This document shows positions 11,403-21,468 of a stretch of 46,256 nucleotides of DNA, in pieces. The notes below the pieces were generated by a model that saw only the letters and a program-made list of their open reading frames with translations, did no database searches and was not told the DNA's origin. The stretch is from Gemmatales bacterium (GTDB lineage: Bacteria > Planctomycetota > Planctomycetia > Gemmatales > HRBIN36): contig JANWVZ010000004.1 in the NCBI GenBank assembly GCA_025056555.1, positions 1 through 46,256 on the forward strand, written 5' to 3'. The translations under genes were made by a program, and so were the position numbers. Each line of letters starts with the position of its first letter. Positions within the stretch are counted from its first letter, which is position 1.

Positions 11403-14400
11403 TCAGTCTGAGGGGAGGATACGTAAGTAGTGTTCTGCCAGAGATGCAAGCGGTTCCGTGGGAGCTAAAGAAGGAATCTGCTCGAAGGCGTTTCGCGCGC
11501 GGGCGATTTGGCCTGCTTCGAGTTCGGCACACGCTTGAGCCAGGAGATTGAAGAGGCGTTCGCGGGAACGAGTCAGGGCTTGTTGTTGAAGATATAGGCC
11601 GTTGAAGAAGCTGCCGGCCGGTCCCAGGTCGCCGCCCAATGCCAGTTGCGTGGCTCCTTGAAGGAATGCTTGGGCAGCGGCCCGCTGCAAACGTTGTTCG
11701 ACGGCTTGGCGTAATTCCGCTTCGACCAGCGGCTCCCCTAGCGCCCCCGCAGTTAGTGCACGCCAAACTGTAATCCGTTCCGGCCCGAAGACAGCCTCCG
11801 ACCACGGTTGGTCTAAGAGCCGATGCAAACTCACGGCGTCCCCGGTCTGGAGATAAATGTCAGCCAACAGGAGCACGGTTTCGGCAAATTCCGGTTGGCG
11901 GGGCGACAGGGAACGCATCAGGGACTGCAGCAGGTGCAAAGCAGTTCCTGCCAGCCGCGCTTGCCACATTTCGCGCGCCCGAGCCAACACTTCTCCAGGA
12001 CGGCCCTGGAGGGCAGCGGGCTGTGTCAAGAGCCGCAGCGTCGGCTCAAACCGGCCGCGAGCTTCCGCAACCCGTTGCCGCAACTGCTCCAGCGACATGC
12101 CCAAGTACTCCTCCAAGCGTTGTTGTGGTGCCGGGGTATCCGCGGGGCTACCTTGCGGCAGCTGGAGAAACTGCTCGGCGTGCGCCAAAGCCAAGTCCTC
12201 ACAACCGCGCTCGACGTAACGCCGGGCTAATTCCAGCTGAGCATTGGCCATTTCCGGCTGGAGGCGTGTCAGTTCACGTAGGATGAACATACGGGCCAAG
12301 AGTCGGGTTTCGGGACGAAGTCCCTGGAGGAACTGAGCTTCGTGGGTGTCGAGAAAATTTCCGATGTCGTAGCAGACACCCCAGCTGAAAGGATGGTGCG
12401 GAGATTGCAGGATGCCTTGCCGAGCCCAACGCCAACTCAACCAGAGCACAGCATCGGTCTGATAAACAAAACGAGGGACACGCGGCAAATTCGGCCAGCC
12501 CTCTTCGACGAGAGTAGCCGCCTGCATCAAAGTACCGCTCAGGCCGTTGCAGGGCAAAGTAGCAGTTCCTGAGGCCAACCGTGTCGCCACCAGCAAACCT
12601 GTCGCCTGCAGACGGGGCGAAGCCAGACGCTGTCGCCAATCGTGCAAGGTGACAAACAACCACCGCGCTGCCAGGGTCGCCAGCGCCGGCTGCTCGGGTT
12701 GCCCCGTGAAGTAAATCCTGAGCGTTCGCCAGGGCTCCAGGTCACGACCAACTCTGCTGATACTGCCCCCGAACGCGACTGGGTCCCGCACCGCCGACAC
12801 ATCTTCTGGTTCAGTAACGCGCCACCGCCGTTCCGGAATGAAGCGGAGGTGCTGCAACTTCGGCCAATGAGGCGACCCTGTCCAGGCAAGCAGAAAGGTC
12901 GCCCCGTCCAAGTAATCCAGCAATTCCCAGGTGGGTTGGCCTTGCTCATCGCGGTCGGCCAACAGCAAAGGCAGGAGCGCAACCTGAACGCGACGTCGCC
13001 CGGCGTCGAGCCGCGACACCGTCGTGTCGCTATGCACCACGATGTGACTGACGTCATACTGTCGTAACAGCATCTGCCAGCGTCGCCTTTCTTGCTGCCC
13101 TTCTACGGTGCCTGTCTTCTCCAACGCTTGGACCACCTCGAGAAAATCCTGCACAGCCTGGCGGGTGTACAGTCCGGCGCGTACATCCAACCAGACTGAA
13201 TGCGTGTGCAAACTCGCCCAATAGGGAGCAGCTTGAACCCAGTCCAGGTGCAAGGCTTTTCCCGGCAGGCTTCCAGCCGCTTGCCAATCCCTGGCCACGC
13301 GAGCAGCCTCTGCCAGGCTCGCATCCTGCATCAGGGAAAAACCCCAACCCCGACGGGTGACCCACCCCAGTGCCGTTCCACTGCCCGGTTGCGGCCACAA
13401 AGTCGCTATCAACAGAGCCAGCAAGACAGCCACTAAAGCCAACCGGCCGGATTGGGTCCACAACAAGGCCCGCCGAGTGGTTTGCGGTATCCCCCCAAAA
13501 CGGGTGGTCAAGTAACCGTGCCAATGCTTCCACAGGCCTGGCAATGCCAAGACAGCGAACCAAGCGGTGTACTTGGCCAGGTATGCCGAAAGCAGCAGTC
13601 CCAACAAAGCTGGCAAGAACCACGGCCAGCGCCATGAAGCCCGACCAAACCACAACCCGGCCAACGTCAGCCCCAGGATGACGAAATATCCGCACTCGGC
13701 CAAACTGGGATAAGCACCGCCGGGCTCAGCAAAAAAGGCCGTGCTGAAAGGCGATAACCCCAGCCGCGCTGCCTGTGGGCTGCTTTTCTGCAACAGCGCA
13801 GCCGTCTCCGAAAAAAGCAATGGCGACGGATCAAAAACGTGCAAGTGGAACGGATTGCAGCAGACCGCCAAAGCACTGACTAGAATCACCTGTCCCAACA
13901 ATCGCCGTTCTTCGTAAGGCAGGACATCGCTGCCGTAACGCTCCGGCCCCCACATAGCCTGCATATGCTGACCAACCCAATAAAGTAGCAAAACCGCCAA
14001 CCCAATCAGCACGGAACTATCGCAGTTAGCCCACAGCAGGAAAAGACCAGGAATGAGCCACCACAATCGGCCTCTTCCCGCCTGGAGTAAGCGGTGCCAC
14101 CACCGCCGAAAACCCGTCTGAGCGGCAGTGGGAAACGTCGCCCCATGTGCTGGCTCGGTCAGTAACGCGAATAGACACGCCAGGTAAACTAGTCCGAAAG
14201 ACTCAGGACGTACGTTGAGTCGAACGCTGAGCACCAGTCCTGTTATCAGCAGTCCCACACTCAGCCAGGAAACATAAGGACGATAGGCTCGCTCCAAGCC
14301 ACTCTGATCCTCCCTGATGCCGCGCGTCCGACTCCAGACTTTTGTGCTTTCCTGAGAGAGGCGCTGCGCGGTGTGGCCCAGCAGCCCGATGATGATCATC

Positions 14401-14786
14401 AGGGTAATCACGCGCCCCAGCACCAGGCCGGCGCCGCCACCAGTTCGCCAAGCCAGATAGAAAATGATCTCCGCCAACCAACCTGTGTTAACCCAATCCA
14501 GTTGCTTGGGGCCCAACCCCAGCATTCCCAGAAACCGTTGCCAGCTGGGCCAACCTTGCGGGGAATGCGGGGCGAAGGCAAATGGATCGCTTCCGTACGG
14601 GAATTCGCCATGCACCAGCAGTCTGCCAGCACTCAGGTACAGCTGCGCCTCAGGGTTGCCTACACCCACCGGATAAGCCGCGACCACGGCTAACGTAACT
14701 ACCATCAGACCGAAAATCCATCGGTCGTGAGCCGCGTTCTCGCGGAGTAAATGGGGCAAGGTGAGGACGGAACTCTCTGGATTCAT
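11403..14786 (-). CDS. Very large membrane protein with glycosyltransferase-39/PMT-like N-terminal half and TPR-like C-terminal half
   Basis: 1138 aa ORF (start at residue 12 preferred); many TM segments, WLAEIIFYLAWRTGGGAGL-type segment, helical-repeat-rich C-terminus. Confidence 0.75.
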   Translation of the reverse strand: MNPESSVLTLPHLLRENAAHDRWIFGLMVVTLAVVAAYPVGVGNPEAQLYLSAGRLLVHGEFPYGSDPFAFAPHSPQGWPSWQRFLGMLGLGPKQLDWVNTGWLAEIIFYLAWRTGGGAGLVLGRVITLMIIIGLLGHTAQRLSQESTKVWSRTRGIREDQSGLERAYRPYVSWLSVGLLITGLVLSVRLNVRPESFGLVYLACLFALLTEPAHGATFPTAAQTGFRRWWHRLLQAGRGRLWWLIPGLFLLWANCDSSVLIGLAVLLLYWVGQHMQAMWGPERYGSDVLPYEERRLLGQVILVSALAVCCNPFHLHVFDPSPLLFSETAALLQKSSPQAARLGLSPFSTAFFAEPGGAYPSLAECGYFVILGLTLAGLWFGRASWRWPWFLPALLGLLLSAYLAKYTAWFAVLALPGLWKHWHGYLTTRFGGIPQTTRRALLWTQSGRLALVAVLLALLIATLWPQPGSGTALGWVTRRGWGFSLMQDASLAEAARVARDWQAAGSLPGKALHLDWVQAAPYWASLHTHSVWLDVRAGLYTRQAVQDFLEVVQALEKTGTVEGQQERRRWQMLLRQYDVSHIVVHSDTTVSRLDAGRRRVQVALLPLLLADRDEQGQPTWELLDYLDGATFLLAWTGSPHWPKLQHLRFIPERRWRVTEPEDVSAVRDPVAFGGSISRVGRDLEPWRTLRIYFTGQPEQPALATLAARWLFVTLHDWRQRLASPRLQATGLLVATRLASGTATLPCNGLSGTLMQAATLVEEGWPNLPRVPRFVYQTDAVLWLSWRWARQGILQSPHHPFSWGVCYDIGNFLDTHEAQFLQGLRPETRLLARMFILRELTRLQPEMANAQLELARRYVERGCEDLALAHAEQFLQLPQGSPADTPAPQQRLEEYLGMSLEQLRQRVAEARGRFEPTLRLLTQPAALQGRPGEVLARAREMWQARLAGTALHLLQSLMRSLSPRQPEFAETVLLLADIYLQTGDAVSLHRLLDQPWSEAVFGPERITVWRALTAGALGEPLVEAELRQAVEQRLQRAAAQAFLQGATQLALGGDLGPAGSFFNGLYLQQQALTRSRERLFNLLAQACAELEAGQIARARNAFEQIPSLAPTEPLASLAEHYLRILPSD

Positions 14787-14981
14787 GACTGCGCCCGTGT
14801 TGCCGCTCGCCAAGTTCACGCTCTTCGATGCTGCCCATTTTGAGACACGACGGGGCTGGCGCTAGAGATGCCTGGAGTAGATCCGTCGTGCCAGTTCCTT
14901 CTTCGGAAAAGCCAGCCCGGAGCGGAGAGAAACTGCCGCTCCTTGATACGAGCAAGGGGCTTGTCGGATTGCAAGGGTAGG

Positions 14982-17134: not shown

Positions 17135-17962
17135 CTACTTCTGGGCTCCAAGCCGCGCCATCATCCGCGGCTTAAGCAAGCTCAGGGCTTGGTCATAAAG
17201 ATTGGGGTTAGCTGCAAGGATACCGTGGACAGGCCGATGGGGCTCGCTATAACGAACGGGTTGACCGCAGGCATCAGTAAACACGCCTCCCGCTTCGCAT
17301 ACCAGAACTTCCCCGGCACAGACGTCCCAAACATGGAAGCCGGGATAAAGGCTGGCGTAAATGTCCACCTCTCCCCGCGCGAGCATAGCCAGTTTGCGGC
17401 CTGCGGAGTAACAGGAAACTTCTTCCGCTACAGGTAGAAGGCTTTTTGCCGAACTGCCGCGATCCCCGCGACTGCGCACCAGGCGTGCCCGACTCAGTTC
17501 GGCGGTAGTACTCACCGCACACCGCTGCGCCGAGTCAGCGCCTGCCCGCGAGGTCCAACAGCCTTGCCCTCGTAACGCCCAGGTACTTCGTTGCTCGGCA
17601 GGTTCCAGCACCAACCCCAGCACTGCTTCCCCATGTTCCACCAGACCGATCAGTATGGCGAACTCCCCATTTTTCAGTACAAATCCCCTGGTGCCGTCTA
17701 TCGGATCAACGATCCAAAGGCGTTCTCCCTGGTGGCGCAGCCGGGTCAGAACAGAAGTCTTTTCCTCGGCATAGAAAGCGTCGTGAGGAAAATGCTGGGC
17801 CAAGTACTCCAGAATGCAATCCTGGGCCAATCGGTCAGCAACGGTGGTGACTTCCGGCGGCGCCCACTCCACTGCTTCCATGCTCTGATAATGAACGAGA
17901 ATGATCTCGGCAGCTGCCTCCGCAGCCTGACGGGCCACAGCCAAGTCCTGCCATGTTGCCAT
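17135..17962 (-). CDS. Inositol monophosphatase family protein (3'(2'),5'-bisphosphate nucleotidase / histidinol-phosphatase-like)
   Basis: FYAEEKT, LWIVDPIDGTRGFV, GFHVWDVCAGEVLVCEAGG motifs; start at MATWQDL. Confidence 0.88.
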   Translation of the reverse strand: MATWQDLAVARQAAEAAAEIILVHYQSMEAVEWAPPEVTTVADRLAQDCILEYLAQHFPHDAFYAEEKTSVLTRLRHQGERLWIVDPIDGTRGFVLKNGEFAILIGLVEHGEAVLGLVLEPAEQRSTWALRGQGCWTSRAGADSAQRCAVSTTAELSRARLVRSRGDRGSSAKSLLPVAEEVSCYSAGRKLAMLARGEVDIYASLYPGFHVWDVCAGEVLVCEAGGVFTDACGQPVRYSEPHRPVHGILAANPNLYDQALSLLKPRMMARLGAQK

Positions 17963-17973
17963 GGTGCTTCTAC

Positions 17974-20034
17974 TTACTCGGTCGGACCAATACCCGGCCC
18001 TTGTTGTGGCGGATTGAAGGGGAGAATGTCCAGATCGGCCAGCAGGTGAAACTCCACGAAACAAATCTGCCGGTAAAGTTCGCTGGCATTGAGCAATTCG
18101 CGATGCTTGCCTTGACCTTCGAGATGCCCCTGATGGAAGAACAAGACCAGATCGCTATTCCTCAGCGTGTGAAACCGGTGAGGGATGAAGAAAACGGTGC
18201 GTTGCGGCAGGAAACGAGCATAAGTGTCTTCCAGCATGGTCTTTTCTTCCTCGTTGAGACCAACCGCAGGTTCTTCAATGACCACCACGCTGGGATTGCG
18301 AAGAATGGCCCGAGCCAGGGCAATCTGAAAGCGCTGGAATAGACTCAGAGAATGCCCTTGCTCGCCGATGACCGTTTCGTAACCTTGGGGTAAATCCTGG
18401 ATGAACTGGTGTGCATGAGCCATCTTGGCTGCTTCCATAATCTTTGGCAACTTGAAATTTGGATCGCCGCAACTGATGTTGTTTGCCACCGTATCGGAAA
18501 ACACGAGATCCGATTGCAGCACCAAGTTGATCTGGGAGCGCAAACTCTCCAGCGTGAAGCGACGCAGGTTGTGTCCATCCACGCGAATCACCCCCTGGTC
18601 GGGATCGTAAAAGCGAACCAGGAGATGAGCGAGCGCATACAAGGTCGTACGGTCTGCAGCGACCAGAGCGATGCGCTGTCCTGCTAGCACGGTGAACGAC
18701 ACCCGGTCCAGCAGCAGCCGACTTTCCCCCGGCGAGCGCAGGCTGACATTATCGAACTGCAATTCCCGCTGCACGGCCTCCAGGGAGCGTGCCTGGCCCG
18801 ATTCCGTTACTTCTCCAGGTTGGTCGAGAAAGTCAAACAGCTTGGCTGCGGATTCGGTGGCTCGCTTGAGTATGACTCGGTCGCCCACCATCCGCGCTAT
18901 GGGGAAATACAAACCTCCCAGCGTCAGCGTAAGTATCAGGATGCTGGCTAGGCCCATCTGATTTTCCAGGGTGTTCCAAGCCGCGACAAACGCCAGCACC
19001 GTCAGAACCATGACGCCCAGCAGGATCAAAGTTTCTTGAAAAGCCACTTGTCCCAGCCGCTGCCGCTTGGTCTGGGCCTCGTATTCATTCAGCTGCCGCT
19101 CCATACGCTGCTGATAAAACACTTCCATGAGATAACCTCTGACCAGGCGAATAATCCGTAAACCTTCCTGCAAGAGCGAAAGTTGTTCGGCCGCGCGCTG
19201 ATTCCAAGAACGTTCGCGCCATCGGTACCAGACGAACAGCTGTCCACCGACCACCCAAGTCAGGCCAGCCAGACATACAAACGCCAGAGTTAGGTATGGG
19301 AATCCTCCCGAGGTGCCGAACTCGACCAAGGGGGCAAACCCGGCTAGCAGAATCAGTCGGGTCGGTTCCCGCCAGCGCGACGTTAACCACAGATACAGTC
19401 CCTCCTGAACTGCCTCGACATGTCGCGTGAACACACTGATGGCCTGATTGGAACCCTGCCGTTTCAACAACAGACTCCCCAGACGCAAGGTCTGTAAGTA
19501 AACGCTGCGGCGAAAGCGCGTGGCGGCTTCTGAGGCGGCGCCAGCCGCTGACCAATGCACGAGCAACTGCAAACCCCAGCGCAACACTGCTGTGGTTAGC
19601 GCCCCCACTAGTAAGGCTACCATCACACTCCAGTTGTGCCGCGTCCACGGCCAAGCCCTTACCATCCCTACCAAAACGGGTTCCCAGATGGTTTGTCGCT
19701 GATGCGCCGACCAGGCCAAGGCAAGTAATCCCACCCCTTCATGATTCTTCAGTTGTTCCAGGAAGTGTTGACGTTCCTCCTCGCTCCGCAGTACTTGCTC
19801 TAACCAGCGCCGATGCTCTTCATTCTGCTCGAGAAAACTCTGACGCTGCTCAGTTTCCAATTGGCCGCGACTGACCACCAGCGCCAGGAATAACCCGGTC
19901 AGGCCCAAGAGTAACAGAATCAGTGTCGCCAGGACAATGGAACTGGTAATCGCTATCCACTGCTGGGCCCGGCGGTATTGCAAAAACCGCAATGCTCGAT
20001 CAAAAGGCGGTGGTTTCTCTCCATTCACGAGCAA
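17974..20034 (-). CDS. ABC exporter-like protein (TMD fused to degenerate nucleotide-binding domain)
   Basis: N-terminal TM segments; NBD-like C-terminus with GYETVIGEQGHSLS..IALARAIL, VVVIEEP and IPHR, but Walker A and the LSGGQ signature are absent. Confidence 0.85.
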   Translation of the reverse strand: MLVNGEKPPPFDRALRFLQYRRAQQWIAITSSIVLATLILLLLGLTGLFLALVVSRGQLETEQRQSFLEQNEEHRRWLEQVLRSEEERQHFLEQLKNHEGVGLLALAWSAHQRQTIWEPVLVGMVRAWPWTRHNWSVMVALLVGALTTAVLRWGLQLLVHWSAAGAASEAATRFRRSVYLQTLRLGSLLLKRQGSNQAISVFTRHVEAVQEGLYLWLTSRWREPTRLILLAGFAPLVEFGTSGGFPYLTLAFVCLAGLTWVVGGQLFVWYRWRERSWNQRAAEQLSLLQEGLRIIRLVRGYLMEVFYQQRMERQLNEYEAQTKRQRLGQVAFQETLILLGVMVLTVLAFVAAWNTLENQMGLASILILTLTLGGLYFPIARMVGDRVILKRATESAAKLFDFLDQPGEVTESGQARSLEAVQRELQFDNVSLRSPGESRLLLDRVSFTVLAGQRIALVAADRTTLYALAHLLVRFYDPDQGVIRVDGHNLRRFTLESLRSQINLVLQSDLVFSDTVANNISCGDPNFKLPKIMEAAKMAHAHQFIQDLPQGYETVIGEQGHSLSLFQRFQIALARAILRNPSVVVIEEPAVGLNEEEKTMLEDTYARFLPQRTVFFIPHRFHTLRNSDLVLFFHQGHLEGQGKHRELLNASELYRQICFVEFHLLADLDILPFNPPQQGPGIGPTE

Positions 20035-20166: not shown

Positions 20167-21129
20167 TTATGCCACATCGCGGTCCTCGAACAAGATTAGA
20201 CCGAACAATAAGGCAATGGCGGTATAAACCACCGCGTGAACTCCGACGTGAAACACGTAATCACCCCAGGGCACCTCCAGGCCGCCAATGGTCGCATCGG
20301 TCATGTCGAAATAGTTGAAGCCGGGCAGGATCGTGGCGAAAATCTGCGCCATGACATGAACCAGGGGATTGCCGCCGCGCTCAGGGGACGACTGATACAC
20401 CACAATATGAGCCAACCGCCCCACGATGAACACCGTCAGGCAGATTACTAAGTTCACTACGACCGGTAAGCGTGTTGCCAAAGCCACCGCCAAGCCGGTC
20501 AGAATCATGACCTGAAATAGGTTGCACACTATACTGGGCGCGATGAGCGACAAATCGTGGCTCAGATAAAGTAGATACCGCCCCGCAGCCAGGAAGGCAT
20601 TGGGCAGGAATCCCAGATACCGTTCCAGTTGCTGAATCTCCGCCAGCTGCGGCTTGGTTTCTTCGGCATCAATTTCATTGCGGTAATAAACAGCCATCGC
20701 CATTACCAAGCTGAGGAGCACGGCCAGCAGCAGGGCCGACATAAAAATTCCGAAGAACTTGCCTAGCAAAAACGCTCGTCTTGACATCGGCTTACTCAAC
20801 ACGGTGACCGCGGTACGACCCTCAATCTCTTCCGAAATGGATACCCCTGCGGAAAAGACCGTCAGGATCAGGGTAGCCAGCAAAATTGCACTCAAGCTCA
20901 ACCCTTTCATCATTTTCAATTCTTCGCCGAAGGTGAAGTAAGGAAGGTAAACACTAATCAGCATGAAAAACGACGTCAGGGCCAATAACAGCCAGAACAG
21001 CGGTTGCCGGGTGGATTCCCGATAAGCTGCTTGTGCTACTGCGAGCCATTTGCCGCGCAGATTCAGATTCGGGAAGATGAGCAATGCGGTAATGATACCG
21101 GTAACCAGCAATAAGACGCCCCAAAGCAT
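20167..21129 (-). CDS. ABC-2 type transporter permease
   Basis: ISEEIEGRTAVTVLSKPMSRRAFLLGKFFG motif typical of ABC-2 permeases; six or more TM segments. Confidence 0.8.
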   Translation of the reverse strand: MLWGVLLLVTGIITALLIFPNLNLRGKWLAVAQAAYRESTRQPLFWLLLALTSFFMLISVYLPYFTFGEELKMMKGLSLSAILLATLILTVFSAGVSISEEIEGRTAVTVLSKPMSRRAFLLGKFFGIFMSALLLAVLLSLVMAMAVYYRNEIDAEETKPQLAEIQQLERYLGFLPNAFLAAGRYLLYLSHDLSLIAPSIVCNLFQVMILTGLAVALATRLPVVVNLVICLTVFIVGRLAHIVVYQSSPERGGNPLVHVMAQIFATILPGFNYFDMTDATIGGLEVPWGDYVFHVGVHAVVYTAIALLFGLILFEDRDVA

Positions 21130-21171
21130 AGCCCTATCCCCTGGGAGAATACATTCCCGAAAGCGCACGAA

Positions 21172-21468
21172 TCAATAGGCGATACGAAAGTCGGGAAGTC
21201 CCTCCGGGTCTTCTACAGTGATTTCCTGATGGACAATGTAGCCGATCATGGCCTGCGCGACGGCCTGCAGAAAGGCCTCGACCTCCTCAGTTTGTCCTTC
21301 GGCCACCAGTTCAACACGGCCATCGCGTAAGTTTCGCACGTATCCGGCCACGTCATAATGCTGGGCCAGGCGAAGTGCTGTATATCGAAACCCCACACCT
21401 TGCACCTGCCCGGAGTACCACACGTGCTTGCGGACGCGCTGCGGAGATTGTGGCCGATGCTTACTCAT
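21172..21468 (-). CDS. acyP: Acylphosphatase
   Basis: SGQVQGVGFRYTALRLAQHYDVAGYVRNLRDGRVELVAEG. Confidence 0.93.
   Translation of the reverse strand: MSKHRPQSPQRVRKHVWYSGQVQGVGFRYTALRLAQHYDVAGYVRNLRDGRVELVAEGQTEEVEAFLQAVAQAMIGYIVHQEITVEDPEGLPDFRIAY

Follow-up and report, generated by a model that had tools for sequence, protein, structure and literature searches.

The gene on the minus strand at 17974..20028 of the window (the whole stretch of Gemmatales DNA that was analysed, 46,256 nucleotides long) is very probably a genuine, maintained pseudo-ABC exporter, that is, a protein built like an ABC half-transporter in which the motifs that bind and hydrolyse ATP have been replaced. The overall explanation that we favour, and regard as reasonably probable, is that it is a class-specific protein which would act as a structural or regulatory subunit together with a NosY-like ABC-2 permease; the permease-linked role, taken by itself, has about an even chance of being correct. 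The family is spread through the class, neither half of an ATP site can be built from its members, and yet the nucleotide-binding domain (NBD) is under almost as much constraint as in active relatives. In such a family the structural role of the NBD can be told apart from the catalytic one, and the question becomes testable. The locus contains the following genes:

17974..20028, minus strand: pseudo-ABC exporter half-transporter gene, with 6 predicted transmembrane (TM) segments and then a C-terminal NBD
20167..21168, minus strand: NosY-like ABC-2 permease, directly upstream of the pseudo-ABC gene on the same strand, a linkage present in several families of the class
21170..21466, minus strand: acylphosphatase-like open reading frame of 98 amino acids upstream of the permease, identified by reading its sequence against the acylphosphatases that occupy this position in other families
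17135..17962, minus strand: inositol-monophosphatase-family phosphatase (CysQ/HisN-like), with a probable start about 12 nt past the pseudo-ABC stop

The reading frame of the pseudo-ABC gene runs from 17974 to 20034 on the minus strand and gives 686 amino acids with zero internal stops. The GTG at 20028 is the probable start codon, preferred because of the family alignment and the GGAGA just upstream, while a TTG at 20034 is also possible. In relatives the position matching 20028 can likewise be assigned a GTG or ATG, but these were chosen by rule and are supportive only. By its sequence the protein is a clear ABC homologue, with chance resemblance ruled out: it scores 48.2 bits against Pfam ABC_tran (cut-off 25), and its best phmmer matches among PDB sequences are solved ABC exporters (best E 1e-87). 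Such genes are easily annotated as ATP-binding, since they pass the ABC_tran cut-off, though they probably are not. The equivalog cut-offs of NCBIfam lie far above the scores of the protein (for MsbA, 234 of 602 bits). Structure prediction of the NBD had been proposed as a check in the original prediction, and AlphaFold2 (30 aligned sequences) gives a model with pLDDT 82.6 and pTM 0.75, in which the NBD is mostly near or above 90 and a helical extracytoplasmic stretch lies between TM1 and TM2. The best PDB folds found by Foldseek for this model are MsbA (E 9e-28) and TmrAB (E 2e-27), and the model confidently indicates a type IV (MsbA/TmrAB-like) exporter fold, with a transmembrane domain (TMD) followed by the NBD.

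A nucleotide site of an ABC dimer is shared between the two NBDs (PMC7756269): one supplies Walker A and B together with the A-, Q- and H-loops, and its partner contributes signature and X-loop. The motifs of the window protein are:

18619..18681, minus strand: former Walker A region, GQRIALVAADRTTLYALAHLL, from residue 452; the P-loop glycines are gone, Lys is replaced by Leu and Ser/Thr by Tyr
18514..18516, minus strand: Q-loop Gln (LVLQ), kept
18334..18348, minus strand: former ABC signature, residues 563-567, with LSLFQ replacing LSGGQ
18268..18288, minus strand: Walker B, VVVIEEP, residues 583-589; Asp is replaced by Glu, the catalytic-position Glu is kept, and a family-specific Pro follows
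18253..18264, minus strand: D-loop VGLN (canonical type SALD)
18178..18180, minus strand: H-loop His (IPHR), kept in the window protein

The changes at Walker A, signature, Walker B and D-loop that had been claimed are thus all present as written, as is the retention of the Q-loop Gln and the H-loop His; the A-loop Tyr, absent from the earlier list, is also missing. A Walker A of the form GxxGxGK[ST] was not found in the window protein or in any of the 59 family members. Nor is there a displaced P-loop elsewhere in the pseudo-ABC proteins, the sole string match (in L139) lying downstream of the Walker A position. Judged by these motifs, ATP-driven transport by the protein is unlikely.

These losses are a property of the family. 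In a motif table of 59 pseudo and 25 canonical sequences, the P-loop, LSGGQ and the Walker B Asp are absent from every pseudo copy (59/59) and kept in every canonical paralogue (25/25). The comparison of orthologues that had been suggested therefore returned the same losses throughout, and orthologues with an intact Walker A and LSGGQ were not found at the same locus. The Walker A glycines G4 and G6 are lost in the pseudo sequences (one Gly at G6 remaining). At the Walker B Asp position Glu is found in 55 of the 59 and Asp in none, as against Asp in all 25 canonical sequences, and the catalytic Glu of Walker B is kept in 57 of 59. In 28 of 59 copies the Lys position of Walker A is still occupied by Lys; the window protein has Leu there, and by its residues is further degraded at Walker A than many of its relatives. 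The A-loop Tyr, retained in canonical sequences, is substituted in the pseudo sequences, and the H-loop His is present in about half of the pseudo relatives, the rest having Q, R, N or another residue.

A copy from a genome of the same genus (G001) is 76% identical to the window protein. Orthologues at ∼35-76% identity occur in most of the 41 Gemmatales genomes, and divergent copies in other Gemmatales genomes were reached only via the region downstream of the permease. Beyond Gemmatales, a profile search of 249 Planctomycetia genomes, together with a look at individual loci, added members from nine other families of the class (f3, f4, f5, f7, f14, f17, f18, f19, and f6 with one member). Score alone does not suffice to list the family across the class, because canonical paralogues also appear, at about 340-390 bits; motifs and neighbours have to be checked as well. 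Presence counts by score are also underestimates, because very fast-evolving pseudo-ABC copies adjoining the permease (L139:2663-4639, L140:5598-7478, L142:5240-7354 and L143:5128-7095) fell below the profile threshold. Outside the class, no pseudo-ABC genes were identified in a 294-genome sample of the phylum at E 1e-100, a level at which fast-evolving copies would be missed, and no match there stood clearly above the level of canonical proteins. The three best out-of-class matches (416, 398 and 394 bits) are canonical proteins with intact motifs and were rejected as pseudo-ABC candidates.

The selection check proposed for the gene gave a dN/dS of ∼0.08 between the window and G001 copies (0.09 for the TMD, 0.06 for the NBD), which is a rough ratio, as it comes from one pair with a dS of about 2, near saturation. 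These values indicate purifying selection on the window gene, in the NBD no less than in the TMD. A conservation profile of 54 pseudo sequences against canonical paralogues shows where the constraint has gone: conservation is 0.49 in the pseudo sequences versus 0.87 in the canonical ones over A-loop and Walker A, and 0.62 versus 0.98 at the LSGGQ position, but 0.70 versus 0.64 in the helical subdomain and 0.71 versus 0.66 in the X-loop. The signature helix is nearly as conserved in the pseudo family as in the active paralogues. The loss is selective, with the ATP-contact motifs relaxed and the helical subdomain and X-loop maintained. Some features are newly fixed in the pseudo family, such as EEP at Walker B, a D-D-T triplet that follows the D-loop, and Ala replacing the Thr after GK[ST]. 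In a tree of 84 sequences, which has an arbitrary root and several fast-evolving rows on long branches, a single branch with support 100 divides pseudo from canonical sequences; this is compatible with a single origin of the family, and is no proof of it. Taken together, the class-wide conserved substitutions and purifying selection strongly support the proposal that this is a pseudo-ABC protein.

The NosY-like permease directly upstream of the gene was unmentioned in the original prediction. Of 249 Planctomycetia genomes, 241 have a member of its family, nearly always in single copy. The permease lies directly upstream and on the same strand at 30 of 40 pseudo loci and then at 6 of 6 further ones (36 of 46 in total), versus 0 of 24 loci of canonical half-transporter genes. 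A search that started from the permease gave four additional permease/pseudo-ABC pairs, a biased count. In several genomes the two genes are apart, and a pseudo-ABC gene beside the permease was not found in f8, f11, f12, f13, f15 and f20, in two f6 genomes, or in one f5 genome. The permease can do without the pseudo-ABC gene, because several families have it without a recognisable pseudo-ABC gene beside it. The resemblance to NosY is seen in a Foldseek match to 7znq_Y (E 8.6e-4, TMt 0.60), made with a model of pLDDT 71, and in a profile match (E 0.0013). Neither the class loci nor four loci out of class showed a NosF-type ATPase next to the permease, and of the 32 ABC_tran matches in its own genome none was assignable to it. 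The permease reading frame is longer in several families where it has no pseudo-ABC neighbour, with 500-600 amino acids (L146-L150) versus roughly 280-330 in others. Weaker relatives of the permease occur outside the class (L155-L158).

The other neighbours are of several kinds. The order acylphosphatase-permease recurs in f3, f4, f6 and f11 as well as out of class (L156), and is probably older than the pseudo-ABC gene, because it is present in families without that gene and out of class. On the downstream side, the CysQ/HisN-like phosphatase is a conserved neighbour in many Gemmatales, and in f4 an HD_4 hydrolase, a relative of the RelA/SpoT hydrolase domain, follows the pseudo-ABC gene (L098:4066-4680, L099:6044-6670, L100:6635-7246). 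An NAD kinase is found upstream in some Gemmatales pseudo-ABC loci. A 3'-phosphonucleotide theme shared by the CysQ-like phosphatase, the HD hydrolase and the NAD kinase is possible as a weak speculation, and is left as such because phosphatase and hydrolase met no curated cut-off and the neighbours vary by family. Further along the window, at 11403-14819 on the minus strand, lies a large predicted membrane protein of 1138 amino acids with zero Pfam or NCBIfam matches.

How, then, should such a gene be explained? The source assembly is a fragmented 3.8 Mb MAG that is 87% complete, which could speak for a pseudogene, for local decay or for a frameshift introduced by sequencing. In this case such an origin is hardly credible: the frame is open over its full length, the same losses recur in all 59 members from many assemblies (single-contig genomes included), and the dN/dS is low. 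A frame that restores the P-loop was not found either: the other frames of this strand contain a single P-loop-like string, at codon 351 in the TMD, and the 58 other members are also without a P-loop. We reject frameshift and local decay on these grounds, and the earlier view that an intact frame of this length is not simple decay holds. A role as a heterodimer partner had also been suggested. The protein would then be the non-catalytic half of an exporter and pair with an unlinked canonical half (e.g. G000:C320), much as in TM287/288, TAP or CydDC; the fold is nearest to those of MsbA and TmrAB, and the same genomes do encode canonical half-transporters with intact motifs. In the degenerate exporters that have been reviewed, however, one degenerate composite site is paired with one canonical site (PMC7756269). 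Here the P-loop (the cis half) and the signature (the trans half) are both lost, and for this reason a canonical partner would still leave both composite sites compromised, a situation that the usual model of a degenerate heterodimer does not cover. Moreover, the search for a canonical half-transporter adjoining the gene found none in the examined loci, the repeated neighbour being the ABC-2 permease. A heterodimer partner is therefore disfavoured and, in our estimate, quite improbable.

It is also conceivable, though unlikely, that the protein works alone as an ATP-independent membrane protein, either a passive conduit for lipids or small molecules or a scaffold, and that its adjacency to the permease is inherited gene order. 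The six TM segments are kept, permease and pseudo-ABC genes separate in some genomes, and the turnover of other neighbours among families suggests that function is not fixed by gene order alone. On the other hand, conservation of the NBD at least equals that of the TMD and extends to its coupling surfaces, something for which a simple conduit would have no use, and the permease linkage persists in several families while the other neighbours change. Of the roles proposed at the outset, the structural or regulatory one is the best reading, at the level of inference, and the heterodimer is not.

A scaffold or regulatory role with the permease is favoured because the coupling surfaces are conserved and the permease is linked. 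A homodimer of the pseudo-ABC protein would have zero normal ATP sites, and a heterodimer with a canonical half two damaged ones, and we infer that the protein does not pump by ATP hydrolysis. It would probably form a dimer in the membrane, in which the preserved X-loop, helical subdomain and signature helix may serve as a scaffold or conformational regulator. The most likely partner would be the product of the adjoining upstream gene, the NosY-like permease, in a manner comparable to SUR1, and the ATPase of the permease, if it has any, would be encoded at another place in the genome. Relatives with the Walker A Lys may bind nucleotide weakly or in an unusual way, as this Lys is kept in 28 of 59 members and the Walker B Glu in 57 of 59. 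A bolder version, which we offer only tentatively, is that the two genes form a module in much of Planctomycetia, in which the pseudo-ABC protein, with both halves of its ATP site lost, would be obligate for the permease as its regulator or scaffold and would hydrolyse no ATP, the permease for its part having no linked ATPase; if true, it would be a bacterial parallel to ABC proteins recast as regulators. The finding also points to a conserved NosY-like permease without a known ATPase. No published description of the pseudo-ABC family was found in the open-access PMC literature, and an earlier account may exist elsewhere.

Among known systems, the half-transporters of the MsbA/type IV (ABCB) type provide the best fold and sequence matches. 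They share with the pseudo-ABC protein a single TMD-NBD chain, six TM segments, the order of the NBD subdomains, the X-loop and the signature helix, but the pseudo-ABC protein is without Walker A, LSGGQ, the Walker B Asp, the A-loop Tyr and the D-loop. In TM287/288, TmrAB, TAP and CFTR catalytic residues have likewise been lost, in a conserved manner, from an otherwise intact NBD; these proteins, however, have one degenerate and one canonical site and still transport (PMC7756269), whereas in the pseudo-ABC family the NBD has lost both of its contributions and a canonical partner was not found linked. NosY of NosDFY resembles the upstream permease in fold and profile, but the permease is without an adjacent NosF-type ATPase, and its usual neighbour in the Planctomycetia lineage is the pseudo-ABC gene. 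SUR1, finally, is an exporter fold that regulates another membrane protein and does not pump, an analogy in the way of working only and no claim of membership. Unlike the pseudo-ABC protein, SUR1 is a eukaryotic full-length ABCC protein which still binds nucleotide, and its partner is a channel.
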